Virus record (IMG/VR): IMGVR_UViG_3300037104_000769
Coordinates: 1 to 42,159 of that record
Reading direction: 5' to 3' (one strand)
Length of the DNA stretch: 42,159 bases
Origin: a virus
Part shown: positions 5,505 to 42,159 of the stretch, piece after piece
How positions within the stretch are numbered: position 1 is the first letter of the stretch
How the letters are laid out: each line of letters begins with the position of its first letter
The notes under the pieces: generated by a model
What the model was told of the DNA's origin: nothing
Databases searched by the model: none
What the model saw: the letters and a program-made list of their open reading frames with translations, nothing else
Position numbers and translations under genes: made by a program

Positions 5505-7193
5505 GTGCCCGACAACACCCTCTACTACGGCGACAATCTCGACGTTCTCCGGCGCCACGTCGACCCCGAATCGGTCGACCTCGTGTACCTTGACCCCCCG
5601 TTCAACTCCAACGCGACGTACAACGTCCTGTTCGCCGAGGTGCACGGGGAGCGCGCAGCGAGCCAGGTGCAAGCCTTCGAGGATACGTGGACGTGGGACG
5701 AGTCGGCCGCGTGGAGCTACGCGCAGACGGTCGAAGCCGGCGGCAAGGTGTCCGACGCCCTCCAAGCCTTCCACACCTTGCTCGGCCCCTCGAATATGCT
5801 CGCGTACCTGGCCATGATGGCGCCGCGGCTCGTGGAGCTCCGGCGCGTGCTCAAACCGACCGGCTCCCTGTACCTGCACTGTGACCCGACAGCCGGTCAC
5901 TACCTCAAGCTCCTCCTCGACGCCGTGTTCGGGCCGGAGCAGTTCAGGAACGAGATCGTCTGGAAACGGACGCTCGCGCACGGCTCGGCGCGCCGCTACG
6001 CTCCCGTGCACGACTTGCTCCTGTTCTACTCGAAGGCCGCCGGCTACGCATGGGCAGACCTCCGCGTCCCGGTCGACGAGGCGTACATCGCGTCCCACTT
6101 TCGCAAGGTCGACCCGGCCACCGGCCGGCTGTTCCAGGACGTGGCATTGACCGGGCCGGGCGTCAGGAGCGGCGAGAGCGGCGCGCCGTGGCGCGGCATC
6201 AACCCGACAGACAAGGGCCGCCACTGGGCGCTACCGAGCGCCGTCCTCGAGCGCGCCGGCTTCACCATCGGGTCGACCGCCGACAAGCTCGAGGCGCTCG
6301 AGCAGGCCGGGCGCCTGTTCTGGCCGGCCAAGGAAGGCGGCGTGCCGCGGCTCAAGTGGTACGCCGACGAGATTCAAGGCCAGGCGCCGCCGGACTTGTG
6401 GACTGATATCCCGCCCATCAACTCGCAGGCCGCCGAGCGGCTCGGCTACCCGACGCAGAAGCCCGAAGCGCTCCTCGAGCGCATCATCGAGGCCAGCACC
6501 GACCCCGGCGACGTGGTGCTTGACCCGTTCTGCGGCTGCGGGACGGCGATCGCCGCGGCTCAGACGCTCGGCCGCCGTTGGGTCGGCGTCGACGTGACGC
6601 AGCTCGCCGTGACGCTCATAAAGACACGCCTCTTCGACGCCTTCAAGATCGAGGCCGGTAAGGACTACGCCGTGATCGGCGAGCCCGTTTCGGAGCCCGA
6701 CGCGGCAGCACTCGCCGCCGCCGACCCGTACCAGTTCCAATGGTGGGCGCTCGGCCTCGTGGGCGCCCGGCCGGTGGATCAGAAGAAAGGCGCCGACAAG
6801 GGCATTGACGGTCGACGGATATTCCACGATGAAGGTCCGATGAAGGCCAAGCAGGTCATCTTCAGCGTGAAAGCCGGCCAGAACGTTGGCGTGGGCATGG
6901 TGCGCGACCTAGGCCACGTCGTGCAGCGCGAGGGCGCCGCGATCGGCGCCCTCCTCACGATGCAGCCGCCCACGAAGCCGATGCGCGAAGAAGCCGCCGA
7001 GGCCGGGTTCTACGATTCGCCCTACGGCGGCCGCTACTCCCGGCTGCAAATCCTCACCGTCGGGGAACTCCTAACCGGCGCCGCCCGCTTGCAGTTCCCG
7101 CACGTCGAAGGCATGGACGCCACGTTCAAGCAGGCGCCGAAGGCCACGCCCGACGCGCCCGACGCGGCCTCGCTGTTCGACGAGGCCGAGTAA
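5505..7193 (+). CDS. DNA methyltransferase fused to a Mrr-like restriction endonuclease domain
   Basis: A 562-residue protein. The methyltransferase half has DPPF (residues 30-33, motif IV) near the start and DPFCGCGTA (340-348, motif I, SAM binding) near the end, the order of beta-class N6-adenine/N4-cytosine enzymes. After about residue 405 comes a second domain with GIDGR (433-437) and VIFSVKAG (451-458), followed by TKPMREEAAEAGFY. This matches a recurring C-terminal domain of fused methyltransferases that resembles Mrr-type PD-(D/E)xK nucleases, with D435 and K456 as likely catalytic residues and Ser replacing the usual acid or Gln before the lysine. The gene sits inside the lysis region with its own start signals, as a moron would. 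Specificity and nuclease activity are unknown. Confidence 0.85.
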   Translation: MPDNTLYYGDNLDVLRRHVDPESVDLVYLDPPFNSNATYNVLFAEVHGERAASQVQAFEDTWTWDESAAWSYAQTVEAGGKVSDALQAFHTLLGPSNMLAYLAMMAPRLVELRRVLKPTGSLYLHCDPTAGHYLKLLLDAVFGPEQFRNEIVWKRTLAHGSARRYAPVHDLLLFYSKAAGYAWADLRVPVDEAYIASHFRKVDPATGRLFQDVALTGPGVRSGESGAPWRGINPTDKGRHWALPSAVLERAGFTIGSTADKLEALEQAGRLFWPAKEGGVPRLKWYADEIQGQAPPDLWTDIPPINSQAAERLGYPTQKPEALLERIIEASTDPGDVVLDPFCGCGTAIAAAQTLGRRWVGVDVTQLAVTLIKTRLFDAFKIEAGKDYAVIGEPVSEPDAAALAAADPYQFQWWALGLVGARPVDQKKGADKGIDGRRIFHDEGPMKAKQVIFSVKAGQNVGVGMVRDLGHVVQREGAAIGALLTMQPPTKPMREEAAEAGFYDSPYGGRYSRLQILTVGELLTGAARLQFPHVEGMDATFKQAPKATPDAPDAASLFDEAE

Positions 7194-7398: not shown

Positions 7399-8082
7399 GT
7401 GAGCAAGACGTTCGTTGCGATCGCGCTGGCTGTCACGATTGGCCTCATCCTTCTGATGGTCATCAGCGGGCGGGCGCAGGGAGACGTGCTGCCCTCGCCC
7501 GAGCCATCCGCGTCGCCAACCGCCACACCCTCACCAGTAGCTCCGCCCGAACTCGTCACCTGGGCACTCCGTATGAGAGGCCGCGCCCTGCGCGCTCGGA
7601 GGCCGCTGGCGCGCGCTGACCGCTGCCTGCGGCTCCACAGACCACCCGCAGTAGAGGCCGTCCCAGCGCGTTCCTGTGACGCGGCGACTTGGAAAGCTTA
7701 CGGCGCGGACTGTCAAGCCTTGGCCTCGCAATTCTGCAAGACGCTGAAGGCGCGCATCCACAAGATGTGCCACCCGGGAGGCCCGGCGTCGGGCGCCAAG
7801 TGGCTGCCGCTCGCCAAGTGGGTGGGCTGGCCACGCTCCACCTGGCACACGCTCGCCGGACTCATCATGAACGAGTCGACCGCGATGCCGTGGGCGCACA
7901 ACGACACCCCGCCGACCTTTTGCCGCGGGCTGCTGCAAGAGGCCCGCTGCTGGTACGCCGGCCGCTGGCGTTTCAACCCGTTCTCCGCGCTCAAGAACCT
8001 GTACTACGGCCTGAATATCTGGCTGCTGCAGCACCGCTCGTTCCTTCCGGCCTGGCAGGGCGATCCAGCCGTGGGGTACTGA
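7399..8082 (+). CDS. Exported/membrane-anchored lytic transglycosylase-like protein
   Basis: GTG 7399 is chosen because GGGAGGTG lies just upstream. The 227-residue product begins with a classic signal-anchor (residues 2-24), then a Pro/Ser/Thr linker (about 30-50). The C-terminal domain has IMNES with Glu159, CRGLLQ (175-180) and FNPFSALKNLYYGLNIW (192-208), matching the ES...GLLQ...NP pattern of soluble lytic transglycosylase folds, with Glu159 as the likely catalytic acid. Cysteines at 93, 105, 113 and 124 could form disulphides outside the cell. It would cleave the glycan strands of peptidoglycan, for lysis or for releasing virions. Confidence 0.72.
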   Translation: MSKTFVAIALAVTIGLILLMVISGRAQGDVLPSPEPSASPTATPSPVAPPELVTWALRMRGRALRARRPLARADRCLRLHRPPAVEAVPARSCDAATWKAYGADCQALASQFCKTLKARIHKMCHPGGPASGAKWLPLAKWVGWPRSTWHTLAGLIMNESTAMPWAHNDTPPTFCRGLLQEARCWYAGRWRFNPFSALKNLYYGLNIWLLQHRSFLPAWQGDPAVGY

Positions 8083-8083
8083 G

Positions 8084-8251
8084 GTGGATCCCTACTGGCG
8101 CCGCCGTCTCCCCCGCGGCTGGCACGTCTCGGAAGGCCGGCACCCGCTGACCGGCATCCCGATGGTGCGCCTGTTCTACTCCCCGAACCCGTGGGAGCGC
8201 ATCGTCATGCGGGCGCAGCGGGCGTGGAGACGGTGGAGGCGGCCGCGGTGA
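8084..8251 (+). CDS. Small basic protein, unknown function
   Basis: A 55-residue reading frame starting with GTG one base after the transglycosylase stop and ending in a GTGA overlap with the next gene. It is rich in Arg and Trp (five Trp, many Arg), with a WRRWRRPR C-terminus. Codon positions follow the G+C pattern of its neighbours. No family recognised; the composition suggests nucleic-acid or membrane contact. Confidence 0.55.
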   Translation: MDPYWRRRLPRGWHVSEGRHPLTGIPMVRLFYSPNPWERIVMRAQRAWRRWRRPR

Positions 8252-19292: not shown

Positions 19293-19535
19293 GAAAGGTG
19301 CGCAGGGCAGTTTGCGCACCTTGCGCACCTTTCACTCCCTCCTATGCCGAAAGATGCGCAGCACCCTGTGCGCACCTTGCGCACCTTTCGGAGAATGCCT
19401 GCAAATCAGCACAATCAAGATGCGCAGCAGCCTGCGCACCTTTCTGCGCACCTTTCAGCACGGCACACAGCGAAAGATGCGCAGCAAGCCACACACAGCC
19501 CCCCTTTAGGGGGGCGTGTGGCCTGCGCACCTTTC
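19293..19535. repeat. Iteron array, candidate replication origin
   Basis: Eleven copies of a 10-12 base unit TGCGCACCTTTC. Direct copies start at 19313, 19322, 19369, 19378, 19433, 19445 and 19524. Inverted copies (GAAAGRTGCGCA) start at 19293, 19349 and 19472, with a shorter one (AAGATGCGCA) at 19417. They form four modules, each an inverted copy followed by direct copies. Modules one and two are spaced exactly 56 bases apart. The inverted and first direct copy can pair (10 bp, loop of 8 in module one). The array sits between the RepA-like helicase and SSB genes. It could instead be a regulatory region. Confidence 0.78.
19488..19522. terminator. Large hairpin inside the iteron array
   Basis: GCCACAC (19488-19494) pairs with GTGTGGC (19516-19522) and GCCCCCC (19498-19504) with GGGGGGC (19509-19515), around a TTTA loop, with one three-base bulge. 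It fills the gap between the inverted and direct repeats of the last module. It could stop transcription from the helicase gene or form an origin cruciform; no T tract follows. Confidence 0.55.
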
Positions 19536-19563
19536 AGCGCCCGCAATCGACAAGGAGATCCTC

Positions 19564-19986
19564 ATGAGCAAGTCCCTCAACAGCGTGTCCCTGACCGGCT
19601 ACCTCGGAGCCGATCCCAAGACTCACCAGTTCGACAACGGCGACCAGGTCGCTAACCTGCGCCTCGCCGTCGCTCGCCAGAAGAAGGTCGACGGAGAGTG
19701 GGTCGACGACACCGTGTGGGTCGACGTGAAGGCCTTCGGCAAGCAGGCCGAGTCGATCGAGGCCTACCTCACCAAGGGCAGCTTCATCGCCGTCACCGGC
19801 CAGCTGGCGCAGCCGCGGGAGTGGGAGGGCGAGGACGGCGCGAAGCGCTTCACGATGGTCGTTGACCACGCGCTCGTGACCTTCGGGCCACGCACTGACG
19901 GCAGCGCGCCGCCTGCTCAGCAGCAGCGCCAGGCCGCGCCGGCACAGCAGCAGGCGCCCGTGAGCGACGACGACATTCCATTTTGA
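19564..19986 (+). CDS. ssb: Single-stranded DNA-binding protein
   Basis: ATG 19564 follows AAGGAGATCCTC, a good ribosome-binding site; upstream frames run through the iterons and are rejected. The 140-residue protein has the OB fold (residues 1-110: SLNSVSLTGYLGADPKTHQF, NLRLAVARQ, WVDVKAFGKQAE, GSFIAVTGQL), a Gln/Ala/Pro linker and the acidic tip DDDIPF. The tip recruits partner proteins. It should coat single strands during replication and assist the Sak4-like ATPase. An SSB directly after a putative origin is a common phage arrangement. Confidence 0.95.
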   Translation: MSKSLNSVSLTGYLGADPKTHQFDNGDQVANLRLAVARQKKVDGEWVDDTVWVDVKAFGKQAESIEAYLTKGSFIAVTGQLAQPREWEGEDGAKRFTMVVDHALVTFGPRTDGSAPPAQQQRQAAPAQQQAPVSDDDIPF

Positions 19987-20378: not shown

Positions 20379-21230
20379 ATGACCACGCAAACCGACCAGA
20401 TCGAAGCCTTCCCAAAGACCGCCATCAACGTGCTTGAGGAGCTGAGTGTGTTGCATGCCTCCGCTCTCGAGAAGGCGCGCAACGCGCTGGACGCGCTGAG
20501 CGACGACGAGAAGATAGCTCGCGCCTACGAAAAGGCCGAGGACCGCGTGCACGAAGCGCAGCGGCTGCTGAAGGACATCACCACAGCGCTCAGCGATCTG
20601 CGTCCGCCGGCGACCGGCAAGATCTCGGTGCTCGCGGAGGTCGCCGAGATCGTGAACGGCGGCGCTCTCGACAGCGACGGGATCCTTGTGACCGCAGAGG
20701 TGACGCCCGGCAGCTTCACCGACGAGGTAGCCGCCGAGCTCGACGCTGCCGGCATCGTGCACCGCCGCGACCAGCCACTGCCGCTCTGCGTCGACCCGAT
20801 CACTGGCGAGGTGGAAGAGATGACCTCCAAGGATTTCCTCGCCGCCTGTGATGCCAAGGCACAGAAGGACGCCGCCGCTCGCGACGTCGAGCCCGCCACC
20901 TCCGTCGTCGTCGTGGTCTACCCGGGAGACGAGAACCCCGTCGTGACGAAGGTCGGCGAGAAGACCAGGTATGGCGAGCTCGTCGCCGACTACTTCACGG
21001 CCGCCGGGCTCACAGATCGTCAGGACGCCAAGGACTGGAAGGTCGTCGCAGAACGCGAGCTGGGCAGATCCAGCACCCACTACGGGCGCCGCAACCTGCG
21101 CGACATCATCAGCCACGACGACTACGGCAAGCGCCTCATCGTGGCCTCGGCCGACCAGGGCAGCGTGACGGGCGCCGACGTCGACCCCGACTACGAGGCC
21201 GCCAAGGACGCGGCGGAGAGCGCGGCGTGA
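20379..21230 (+). CDS. Hypothetical early protein with helical N-terminus
   Basis: A 283-residue protein with GAGAGGAGTGAG before its ATG. Residues 10-75 are helical and coiled-coil-like; the middle is mixed alpha/beta (TSVVVVVYPGDENPVVTKVG); the C-terminus is acidic. No catalytic motif was recognised. Place in the operon, between SSB and RusA, suggests a replication or recombination function. Confidence 0.55.
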   Translation: MTTQTDQIEAFPKTAINVLEELSVLHASALEKARNALDALSDDEKIARAYEKAEDRVHEAQRLLKDITTALSDLRPPATGKISVLAEVAEIVNGGALDSDGILVTAEVTPGSFTDEVAAELDAAGIVHRRDQPLPLCVDPITGEVEEMTSKDFLAACDAKAQKDAAARDVEPATSVVVVVYPGDENPVVTKVGEKTRYGELVADYFTAAGLTDRQDAKDWKVVAERELGRSSTHYGRRNLRDIISHDDYGKRLIVASADQGSVTGADVDPDYEAAKDAAESAA

Positions 21231-25502: not shown

Positions 25503-26804
25503 ATGAGCATTGCCGTGGACGTCCAGATGTGGCCGATCTCCCGACCAATCCCGTACGCCCGGAATGCCCGTGTTTGCCCCGAGGAAGCGATCTCCAAGGT
25601 CGCCGGCTCCATCCACGAGTTTGGTTTCAAGAACCCCATCCTGGTCGACGGCGACGGCACGATCATCGCCGGACACACGCGCCTTCTCTCGGCCCAGCGA
25701 CTGGAGCTGTCCGAGGTACCGGTGATCGTCTGCGCCGACCTCTCGCCGGCGAAGGTCAAGGCGCTGCGCCTCGCCGACAACCGCACGGCGCAGGAGACGA
25801 GCTGGGACGACGAACTGCTCGCCATCGAGCTGGAGGAATTACTCGGCCTGGACGTCGACCTTGACCTGACTGGATTCGACCCCGAAGAGATTGCGGCGCA
25901 CCTTGCCGATCCGACCGAGGGGCTCACGGGCGAGGATGAACCCGGGCCCGTTCCCGAGATCCCCGCAACGCAGGCCGGCGACCTGTGGCTGCTCGGCAAG
26001 CACCGTCTGCTCTGCGGCGACTCGACCAGCGAGGACGACGTCAAGCGCTTGATGGACGGGCGCCTCGCCGTGCTCATGGCCACCGACCCGCCCTACCTCG
26101 TCGACTACACCGGCGGCAACCATCCTCAAACGTGGGCCAACGGCGGCAAGGCTCCCGGCGCTCCTCACGATGCCGGCACCAAGCATTGGGACGCCTATTC
26201 GGATCACGAGAGCTCCGTCGCCTTCTACCGCGACTTCCTGACCACGGCCATCGCCGACGCGCTCGCCTCGCACCCCTTCGTCTACCAGTGGTTCGGCATG
26301 ATGAAGGTCGACATCGTCATGGAGTCATGGCGCGCCGCGGGCCTGCTCCCACATCAGGTGCTGATCTGGAAGAAGAGCCGGCACGTGCTCACGCGCTGCG
26401 ACTTCATGTGGGACTACGAGCCGTTCATGTACGGGTGGGTGCAAGGCGATCGCCCCGAGTCCGACGTCAGGCCGCCGGCGAACGCCTGCGCCGTCTGGGA
26501 AGTCGAGAGTCGGATTGAGGACGACCCCGGCAGCATCCATCCGACGATGAAGCCCGTCGAGCTCATCCGCCGCCCGATCCTCTACCACACTAAACCCGGC
26601 GGCCTCATCTACGAGCCCTTCAGCGGCTCCGGCACAGCGATCATCGCCGCCGAGAACACAGGCCGCGCTTGCTGCGCCATGGAGCAGAGCCCCGCCTTCG
26701 TCGACGCCGCTGTGGCGCGCTGGGAGGCGTATACGGGCGAAGAAGCGACGCTCGAAGGTGACGGGCACACGTTCTCCGAGGTCGCGCAGGAGCGCCTCTC
26801 GTGA
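25503..26804 (+). CDS. ParB-like domain fused to DNA methyltransferase
   Basis: A 433-residue protein. Residues 10-100 are a ParB/Srx-type N-terminal domain: IPYARNARVCPEEAISKVAG, ILVDGDGTIIAGHTRLLSAQ (GHTR at 57-60), and LRLADNRTAQ. The methyltransferase follows: LLCGDSTSEDDVKRL, DPPY (195-198, motif IV) and YEPFSGSGTAI (370-380, motif I), again the beta-class order for N6-adenine or N4-cytosine. This fusion is common in phages, next to the terminase genes as here. It probably methylates phage DNA before packaging, so as to evade host restriction. Specificity cannot be read from the sequence. Confidence 0.92.
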   Translation: MSIAVDVQMWPISRPIPYARNARVCPEEAISKVAGSIHEFGFKNPILVDGDGTIIAGHTRLLSAQRLELSEVPVIVCADLSPAKVKALRLADNRTAQETSWDDELLAIELEELLGLDVDLDLTGFDPEEIAAHLADPTEGLTGEDEPGPVPEIPATQAGDLWLLGKHRLLCGDSTSEDDVKRLMDGRLAVLMATDPPYLVDYTGGNHPQTWANGGKAPGAPHDAGTKHWDAYSDHESSVAFYRDFLTTAIADALASHPFVYQWFGMMKVDIVMESWRAAGLLPHQVLIWKKSRHVLTRCDFMWDYEPFMYGWVQGDRPESDVRPPANACAVWEVESRIEDDPGSIHPTMKPVELIRRPILYHTKPGGLIYEPFSGSGTAIIAAENTGRACCAMEQSPAFVDAAVARWEAYTGEEATLEGDGHTFSEVAQERLS

Positions 26805-40908: not shown

Positions 40909-42087
40909 GTGACCTACAACGGCGAGACTCCGTACACCGACGGTGCCTACACCGTCGTCGAGTTCCTGACGACGGGCGAGTTCGTCACGCCCACAGGCGT
41001 CACCGAGGCAGACGTTCTCGTGGTGGGTGGCGGCGGCGGCGGTTCGGCGGGCGGCGGCGGCGCGGGCGGGTTGCTCGACCTGAGCGGAGTCACGCTTTCA
41101 GGGACCATGGCTGTGGTCGTTGGCGCGGGCGGCGCGGGGCATCAGGCCGAATATATGGGCAACGTCTACCCTGAGGCTCCCGGGGACACAGGTGGAAACT
41201 CGACCTTTGCCGGATACACGGCCTACGGCGGCGGCGGCGGAGGCGAGGTTCACGACTCGATGATACCCGGCAACGGGCAGCCCGGCGGGTCCGGCGGCGG
41301 CGCCGGCCTCTCCAGCGTCGTTACCCACGACGGCGGCGCAGGGACCAGCGGGCAGGGCCACGACGGCGGCAGCGCCGGGTCACACTCCTACGGCTACCCC
41401 GGCGGCGGCGGCGGCGGCGCGGGCGCTGTAGGCGGCGCAGGCGCGACGAATCAGGGCGGCGCGGGCGGCGCGGGCGTGACGTGGCACGGCACGCTCTACG
41501 CTGAGGGCGGTGGCGGCGGCTGCTACAACAACGGCGCGGGCGGCGCGACTAGCGGCTGCGGAGGCGCAGGCCGCGTCGGCGGCGGGACTACGGTCGGCTA
41601 CGCGGGCGCGACCAACCGCGGCGGTGGCGGTGGCGGCGTTGGTCAGATGTCGAGCGTCGGCGGCGCGGGCGGCAGCGGCGTCGTCATCATCCGCTACCTC
41701 ACGCCGGGAAGTTCCTCCTACTTTTCGGCTGCCGGTGGCCTCCTGGTCAGCACGAGCGTCACGGTCGTGGTTCCCGAGGAGCGCGACTTCGTAGCCCACG
41801 GCGGTCTCACAGTCTCTGCAACCGTCGACCTCGCAAGCAAGACCTACGTCAAGGCCGCGGGCGGCGTCTCCTGCGCGCAGGACCCCTGCTGGATTGACGT
41901 GAGCGGCCTCTACAGCGGGCAGGTGCAGGCGGCCGGCGGAGTGCAGATCGTCACTACCATCGTGCGCATCAGCGTCGGCGAGGACCTGCCCCCAACCGAC
42001 GACATCGGCTGGCTCAGCGGTGAAGACACCATCGTGGCGCAGGGCGGCATGGTGAGCAGGACCTTCGCGGTCATGAGTGCGTCGTGA
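40909..42087 (+). CDS. Glycine-rich tail protein (copy 1)
   Basis: GTG 40909 gives 392 residues. The N-terminus (NGETPYTDGAYTVVEFLTTG) leads into a Gly-rich domain from about residue 40 to 255, with clusters of G around VVGGGGGGSAGGGGAGGLLD and closing strands GSGVVIIRYLTPGSSSYFSA. A repetitive C-terminus has SAAGGLL, AHGGLTV and KAAGGVS, i.e. several 'A-x-GG' strands. It is paralogous to 512-1621. Glycine-rich tail proteins are often attached to fibres and help adhesion. The end of this gene is repeated at window positions 1-90. Confidence 0.8.
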   Translation: MTYNGETPYTDGAYTVVEFLTTGEFVTPTGVTEADVLVVGGGGGGSAGGGGAGGLLDLSGVTLSGTMAVVVGAGGAGHQAEYMGNVYPEAPGDTGGNSTFAGYTAYGGGGGGEVHDSMIPGNGQPGGSGGGAGLSSVVTHDGGAGTSGQGHDGGSAGSHSYGYPGGGGGGAGAVGGAGATNQGGAGGAGVTWHGTLYAEGGGGGCYNNGAGGATSGCGGAGRVGGGTTVGYAGATNRGGGGGGVGQMSSVGGAGGSGVVIIRYLTPGSSSYFSAAGGLLVSTSVTVVVPEERDFVAHGGLTVSATVDLASKTYVKAAGGVSCAQDPCWIDVSGLYSGQVQAAGGVQIVTTIVRISVGEDLPPTDDIGWLSGEDTIVAQGGMVSRTFAVMSAS

Positions 42088-42159
42088 GCAACAACATCCG
42101 CAGCCTCGTGGTGCGCATGGGCGGCAAGATCAAGAGCGACGGCGGCACGACCGGACGTG
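41998..42159. repeat. Right copy of terminal redundancy
   Basis: Matches 1-162; three synonymous differences at 42000, 42021 and 42033. See the left copy. Confidence 0.95.
42084..42159 (+). CDS. Partial: start of the tail-tip gene at 87 (duplicate)
   Basis: The first 25 codons of the gene at 87-515 are repeated here and cut by the window end. It overlaps the stop of the glycine-rich gene by GTGA. It is the same gene after circular closure. Confidence 0.9.
   Translation, partial: MSNNIRSLVVRMGGKIKSDGGTTGR

Follow-up and report, generated by a model that had tools for sequence, protein, structure and literature searches.

A bi-oriented iteron array behind an AAA_25 helicase gene as a probable replication origin of a temperate phage

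The iteron array and its neighboring helicase gene

For most actinobacteriophages, origins and initiators have yet to be mapped, and a study of mycobacteriophage origins found no repeated motifs beside its RepA genes (PMC7157519). The locus analyzed here raises the question of whether a dense cluster of short repeats next to a RepA-like helicase gene is such an origin, and of which protein would read it. The window, i.e., the whole stretch of DNA that was analyzed, corresponds to one virus record, 42,159 bp in length. It has genes for an integrase, a terminase, a portal protein, a major capsid protein, and a tape-measure protein, as well as an early region, and this gene set points to a near-complete temperate siphophage of a GC-rich host. 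Both ends of the contig share a repeat (Table 1), which suggests a circularly permuted genome or a cyclic assembly across strain variants.

The array spans 243 bp (19293-19535) and contains eleven copies of a 10-12 bp site, TGCGCANCTT(TC), with the core TGCGCA, in both orientations. Modules 1 to 3 are made of one inverted iteron followed by two direct ones, and module 4 of one inverted iteron, a nested hairpin, and one direct iteron. As 12-mers, six copies are exact and four have one mismatch; the eleventh, the inverted copy of module 3, matches only as TGCGCATCTT. Outside the array, we found no site with 0-1 mismatch in the whole 42 kb window, and none of 20 first-order Markov sequences had more than one such site. 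The TGCGCA core occurs 11 times in the array and 28 times in the remaining 41.9 kb (Poisson P = 4e-17). The copy number, the two orientations, and the four inverted-then-direct modules proposed by the first-pass annotation are thus all confirmed, as is its placement of the array between a RepA-like helicase gene and an SSB gene, both of which have Pfam matches in the window. Measured between their inverted cores, modules 1 and 2 are, as it had stated, exactly 56 bp apart, and the next two spacings are 66 and 57 bp. The 30-bp stretch starting at 19392, between the two iteron sets, has 40% GC and ranks within the lowest five for stretches of this length in the window, without being unique; the box that it covers is a candidate unwinding or host-factor element. 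No DnaA box within one mismatch was found in or near the array. The GC skew, which had been put forward as a check of the origin, has no turn or origin signal at 19.4 kb and is uninformative.

Table 1. Positions of the array, its parts, and other features of the window
Feature	Position	Strand	Details
End repeat	4-162 and 42001-42159		~159-160 bp shared by both contig ends; about two mismatches
N6_N4_Mtase fused to C-terminal Mrr-like restriction nuclease domain	5505-7193		
RepA-like helicase, 425 aa	17998..19275	+	Pfam AAA_25 9e-20
TGCGCA cores	19299, 19313, 19322 / 19355, 19369, 19378 / 19421, 19433, 19445 / 19478, 19524		Four modules
Module 1	19293..19333	+	Inverted iteron 19293-19304, direct 19313-19324, 19322-19333; conserved in L007, L010
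Module 2	19349..19389	+	Inverted iteron 19349-19360, direct 19369-19380, 19378-19389
Non-iteron box between iteron sets	19392..19416	+	Includes GCCTGCAAATCAGCACAATCAA; conserved
Module 3	19417..19456	+	Inverted iteron 19417-19426 (TGCGCATCTT), direct 19433-19444, 19445-19456
GGCACACAG box ahead of module 4	19462..19470	+	Conserved between lineages
Module 4	19472..19535	+	Inverted iteron 19472-19483, nested hairpin ~19487-19521 (GCCACACACAGCCCCCC-TTTA-GGGGGGCGTGTGGC), direct iteron 19524-19535
SSB gene	19564..19986	+	Pfam SSB 4e-22; adjoins the array only in the window phage
Conserved gene 20379	20379..21230	+	Homologue directly after the array in L010 and L193
Second N6_N4 methyltransferase, ParB_N domain ahead of it	25503-26801		

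As single-stranded DNA, the array folds 8.7 standard deviations better than dinucleotide shuffles. Its strongest element is module 4, which alone has a DNA fold of -29 kcal/mol (z -7.2 vs shuffles) and an inner stem GCCCCCC-TTTA-GGGGGGC. A hairpin had been expected in each module: this holds for module 4, but the hairpin of module 3 is not significantly strong in the window (z -1.8). The G6/C6 hairpin described in the last module is present, but is part of a longer nested structure, at roughly 19470-19538.

Located between two co-directional genes, the array could instead control transcription, as repressor operators or sites of RepA autoregulation, with a terminator hairpin separating repA from the following gene. 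Its core is palindromic, as for dimeric repressors, and it ends in a strong GC hairpin. However, there is no sigma-70-like promoter in the scanned region, no T-run follows the hairpin on the + strand, and sites elsewhere in the genome, as dispersed stoperators would have, are absent. Scans for Rfam families and tRNAs also gave no match.

The helicase has a variable N-terminal part (~1-110), an AAA_25/RecA-fold core (~117-345), and a predicted C-terminal winged helix (351-420). Its AlphaFold model has a moderate mean confidence (69), with the N-terminal 110 residues modelled poorly; the C-terminal blocks (351-420) have pLDDT values of 73-91 and the H-H-H-E-E order of a winged helix. A model of the isolated C-terminal 76 aa, made without an alignment, had low confidence and was discarded. 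Foldseek matched the protein to the RecA-type hexameric helicases Twinkle, T7 gp4, RadA, and RSF1010 RepA, the latter being the best by target-normalised TM-score among the matches listed (TMt 0.70-0.71; 1olo/1g8y). No primase domain was found in the helicase protein. We propose the winged helix as the reader of the iterons.

Conservation and exchange of the array

Two more lineages in IMG/VR carry the array, L007 (identical to L008 from a different metagenome) and L010, with the same four modules directly 3' of a RepA homologue. The arrays are 81% (L007) and 71% (L010) identical to that of the window, vs 58% and 57% for the helicase third codon positions, which we used as a rough neutral yardstick. 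The spacings between inverted cores are 56/66/57 bp in the window, 45/67/56 in L007, and 55/67/57 in L010, i.e., the second and third are constant to 1 bp and the first differs by about one helical turn. Hence, the 56-bp spacing of the first two modules is a trait of the window and not a conserved one (56/45/55). The array was also considered as a peptide-coding repeat; this was rejected because the first spacing differs by 11 bp between L007 and the window and no frame is kept. Three boxes are common to the three lineages: RCCTGCAAA...CAG before module 3, GGCACACAG before module 4, and GCGCCC after it. The counterparts of the box at 19392..19416 are GTACCTGCAAAACAG in L007, GTACCTGCAAACAGG in L010, and ACTACCTGGAAACGA in L193, a sister phage described below.

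Module 4 varies in an informative way. The sequence of its inner stem changes across the three lineages with pairing always retained, and its outer arms have the same A.C mismatch in all three (TGCGCATCTT vs TGCGCACCTT). Hence, selection seems to have acted on the outer arms as duplex sites and on the inner stem as a structure, and the hairpin may be a functional sub-part of the array. One could go further and regard the four hairpins, not the duplex sites, as the functional element, in the form of a structured RNA or a single-strand signal (ssi-like primer sites, regulatory RNA). The very low folding energies and the retained pairing of the terminal inner stem would fit. Yet a mismatch kept in three lineages is what one expects of a binding site, whereas a stem under selection would not be expected to keep it. 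In addition, the fold of module 3 is poor in the window, no Rfam family matches, and the identity of the iterons is kept in both orientations, and together these points leave the explanation with hardly any weight.

The gene that follows the array is the SSB gene in the window, a GIY-YIG nuclease gene in L007, and a homologue of gene 20379 in L010, and in both relatives the SSB gene is upstream of repA. This indicates that the array belongs to repA and not to SSB, which loses the role of defining neighbor given to it in the first-pass annotation. A downstream gene that varies next to a constant array also speaks against transcription control. The GIY-YIG nuclease gene of L007 (6241-6885) begins right after the origin-like array, and may be compared with Odn, the origin-directed nuclease of ICP1 (PMC8263062).

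A pattern search in the GTDB genomes and IMG/VR retrieved the bi-oriented array only in these three lineages, the other matches being coding repeats or chance. Two planctomycete genomes (L087, 371-480; L135, 7256-7294) have AAGGTGCGCA ... TGCGCACCTTGCGCACCTT in inverted and direct orientation, like one module of the window, possibly by chance. The window RepA had no match at E 1e-8 in isolated phages and plasmids, and its weak matches (23-31%) were primase-helicases and RepA-like helicases of Gordonia and Mycobacterium. We found no convincing array at the helicase locus of Ligma, Hashim76, NHagos, and Arthrobacter ArV2. A GTDB scan with the RepA alignment, using narrow peptide patterns, gave no match.

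Natural exchanges of helicase domains tell which part of the protein goes with the iterons. The N-termini of the helicases of the window, L007, and L010 are dissimilar (that of L007 is a DnaB N-terminal domain; DnaB_N, 7e-12), and the core, the winged helix, and the iterons are common to all three. By searching with the gene neighboring the array, we found L193-L195, which have the L010 RepA N-terminus nearly unchanged over ~112 residues, followed by a different AAA_25 core and C-terminus. They retain the upstream SSB gene and the same following gene as L010. The TGCGCACC array is not present at their helicase locus. Instead, the 3' end of the L193 helicase gene has seven direct GGGAAC copies, five of them GGGGAAC, beside a ACTACCTGGAAACG box (ACCTGSAAA, similar to the box of the window), and a terminal C/G hairpin of which the last iteron is an outer arm. 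Since L193 keeps the N-terminus of L010 and has other iterons, the iterons follow the core/C-terminal part of the helicase and not its N-terminus. Elsewhere in L193, unrelated to the helicase, there is a twelve-copy tandem repeat (8006-8137) with a unit of about GATCCTGATGAGATC.

Repeats clustered in both orientations are also a feature of parS-like, pac, and attP arm sites. The array could accordingly serve in partition (as a centromere-like site), packaging, or recombination, with a segregation protein, the terminase, or the integrase as its binding partner. But the array is ~3.5 kb from the integrase gene and ~8 kb from the terminase gene. The scanned genes include no ParA, and their sole ParB-like domain is in a methyltransferase. 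Moreover, the repeats stay beside the helicase gene and change with its C-terminal half, which makes a site of this type very unlikely. As judged from these sequence comparisons, the conservation of the array, its linkage to the helicase gene, and the joint exchange of the iterons with the C-terminal part of the helicase are established.

Iterons and C-terminal domains in Streptomyces and other elements

The L193 helicase led us to that of the Streptomyces phage mu1/6 (DQ372923, helicase gp21). At its 3' end, the mu1/6 gene has eight non-overlapping ACCTGCCC copies, which run in both orientations, along with a nested CCCTCTCTAAAGAGAGGG hairpin. The mu1/6 core and, in a second step, the HTH served as queries against ~396 Streptomycetaceae genomes; the core alone was used because the full-length helicase matched host DnaB-like N-terminal domains. 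This revealed eleven further Streptomycetaceae helicase genes with arrays (12 including mu1/6). Two of the arrays, in L215 and L223, are weaker by exact 8-mer count (three copies in the scored interval), with CCTCCCC repeats, box, and hairpin present. The 12 helicases have two unrelated cores, about 27% identical, and iterons of the types CCTCCCC, CCTG[CT]CC, GGTTCCC, or CGTT[TC]CC.

Across these 12 helicases, the iteron class tracks not the core but a ~50-residue HTH that immediately precedes the array. For pairs with different cores, HTH identity is 0.63 when the iteron class is the same vs 0.40 when it is different (permutation p = 0.00075, with HTH boundaries and iteron classes fixed from the sequences ahead of the test), and core identity is equal (0.28/0.27). 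For example, mu1/6 and L207 are 85% identical in the core and only 40% in the HTH, and their iterons differ; mu1/6 and L213 are 28% identical in the core and 57% in the HTH, and their iterons are of the same class. The proposed pairs of domain type and iteron are WGRD with CCTGNCC, WG[SG]P with CCTCCCC, AGNP with GGTTCCC, and AGNR with CGTTYCC. This HTH is a different domain from the winged helix of the window, and the HTH-iteron statistics are those of the Streptomyces set.

A box AAAMCC[GC]CAGGTCAAAC is present with small changes in 12 of the 12 loci. It is found in at least two reading frames and is noncoding in L227, and hence is conserved as DNA. The resemblance of its reverse complement, TTTGACCTG[CG]GG, to the RCCTGCAAA box of the window clade is suggestive of a shared box, which we do not claim as homology. 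The hairpin tips are pyrimidine-loop-purine in all 16 arrays examined. At its 3' end, the coding sequence of the helicase encloses the array in L193 and in almost every Streptomyces relative, and among the latter the iterons co-vary with the HTH of the helicase itself. Both observations argue against transcription control, which we consider unlikely.

In a wider survey, bi-oriented clusters (at least four 8-mers) were found at 18 of 32 AAA_25 helicase 3' ends vs 3 of 240 control intervals of the same loci (Fisher 9e-17), the former not being an estimate of frequency because the survey was partly chosen by similarity to array-bearing members. The other 14 lack such a cluster, hence the array is not obligatory in the wider AAA_25 family. 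Relatives that retain the helicase and SSB without the array had been named as a potential refutation: all relatives with a helicase at least 58% identical to that of the window have it, but those with 33-38% identity (L015, L018, and L019, among the 14) do not have the sequence, and in one sister phage another array takes its place. A profile search of 397 genomes retrieved distant RepA homologues (L228-L233), with bi-oriented clusters unlike that of the window in L228 (CGGCAGAA) and L232 (AGACTACA). Along with L205 (CGAAGGGA) and L206 (CTGGGACA), these two are bacterial AAA_25 loci outside the Streptomyces set with bi-oriented clusters at the 3' end. L016 has three GGCAGAAA copies, which resemble the iteron of L228.

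On balance, we favor the existence of a general origin class in actinobacterial phages and integrated elements. AAA_25 helicases would be their own initiators, with an exchangeable C-terminal reader whose type predicts the iteron, and each array would combine its iterons with a pyrimidine-loop-purine hairpin and a fixed box. The TGCGCACC array of the window, with its winged helix, would be one more 'address' of this class.

Proposed initiation and comparison with known systems

In our assessment, this temperate phage very probably starts its replication at the 243-bp array, which immediately follows the gene of the helicase that would act as initiator. The comparison of the three lineages, the exchange in L193, and the tracking of iterons by the HTH lend strong support to the earlier suggestion of an origin bound by the helicase. 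Points against it are the silent GC skew, the absence of a DnaA box, the shortness of the AT-richer box, the presence of the exact array in only three lineages, the 14 surveyed AAA_25 helicases that lack a bi-oriented cluster, and the difference between the winged helix of the window and the Streptomyces HTH for which the coupling was measured.

Initiation might proceed as follows. The AAA_25 helicase would bind the TGCGCACCTT iterons as double-stranded DNA by its C-terminal winged helix. The opposed iterons, at nearly fixed spacing, would place the subunits such that hexamers assemble on either side of the lower-GC central box, which would then open. The helicase would unwind outward, with SSB coating the single strands. 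Priming and copying would be left to host enzymes, since a scan of window genes that took in part of the small ORFs revealed neither a primase nor a DNA polymerase. The terminal nested hairpin probably extrudes, or forms in the opened strand, and may then aid priming or loading; alternatively, it may delimit the origin.

Two parts of such an origin have, by analogy, separate experimental precedents: iteron reading in SaPI and SCCmec elements, and the stem-loop of pRN1. In SaPI Rep and SCCmec Cch2, the C-terminal domain binds iterons directly downstream of its own gene (PMC7581432). The array is likewise directly downstream of the helicase gene in the window, L007, and L010, and a C-terminal DNA reader is a candidate further likeness, from the predicted winged helix and, indirectly, from the domain swap and the HTH-iteron coupling. 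However, the helicases of SaPI and SCCmec are AAA+ (MCM/SF3-like), and that of the window is AAA_25 with RecA-fold matches. Their iterons are others, and a nested terminal hairpin of the window type was not described for them in the literature searched. They have oppositely oriented iteron sets flanking an AT-rich region; the window has iterons of both orientations and a lower-GC box between modules 2 and 3, but its modules mix orientations.

The replication protein of pRN1 has a C-terminal winged helix, and the plasmid cannot replicate without a stem-loop 3' of the gene for this protein. In the origins of the pRN1 family and of Bordetella phage BIP-1, the stem-loop is variable in sequence and conserved in fold, and its authors noted a similar arrangement in some phages (PMC4234260). 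The inner stem of module 4 is similarly 3' of the rep gene, with pairing kept and sequence variable. In contrast, the pRN1 protein combines prim-pol and SF3 helicase where the window protein has an AAA_25 core, and its ~100-nt stem-loop lacks iterons, whereas the window has eleven and a nested short-loop hairpin. In its proposed working, the array resembles these systems, but it is not a SaPI/SCC member, given the helicase fold, and not of the pRN1 type, given the iterons and RecA-fold core.

RSF1010 shares with the window an iteron origin and, according to the structural matches, a RecA-fold helicase RepA. In RSF1010, a separate RepC binds direct iterons, whereas iteron reading and helicase would be in one protein in the window phage; no RepC-type iteron-binding protein or RepB primase family was found in the scanned subset of window ORFs. 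If true, one protein would be both initiator and RecA-fold replicative helicase, roles that RSF1010 divides between RepC and RepA. Classical iteron plasmids differ by having only direct iterons, along with DnaA boxes, and the window has mixed orientations and no DnaA box.

Another of the closest known systems is mu1/6, which has an AAA_25 helicase whose gene carries, at the 3' end, bi-oriented iterons together with a terminal hairpin and a fixed box. It differs in the iteron (ACCTGCCC), the location of the array within the coding end, the core subfamily, and the HTH. No published origin mapping for mu1/6 was found in the open-access literature searched. Neither was a description of the combination of iteron array, RecA-fold initiator helicase, and hairpin, subscription papers being outside the scope of the search.

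In the PLE satellites of Vibrio cholerae, the DNA-binding domain of the initiator RepA and the iteron origin are exchanged jointly among related elements (PMC8263062). As in the window group, reader and iterons change jointly, but the PLE initiator is of the RepA_N type and not an AAA_25 helicase, and its origin has three semi-palindromic ~30-bp iterons. With the domain/iteron pairs described here, protein-DNA recognition and the evolution of initiators can be tested directly by swapping domains, in the way already used for PLE. If our interpretation is correct, many phage and prophage origins could be read from sequence as an array behind an AAA_25 helicase gene, and compact replicons and compatibility groups could be derived for Streptomyces and related bacteria.

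Finally, the window carries two methyltransferase genes (Table 1). The product of the first, at 5505-7193, is a single-protein modification/restriction-like gene product carried by the phage. An ORF of L193 (8662-10056) is laid out like the second.
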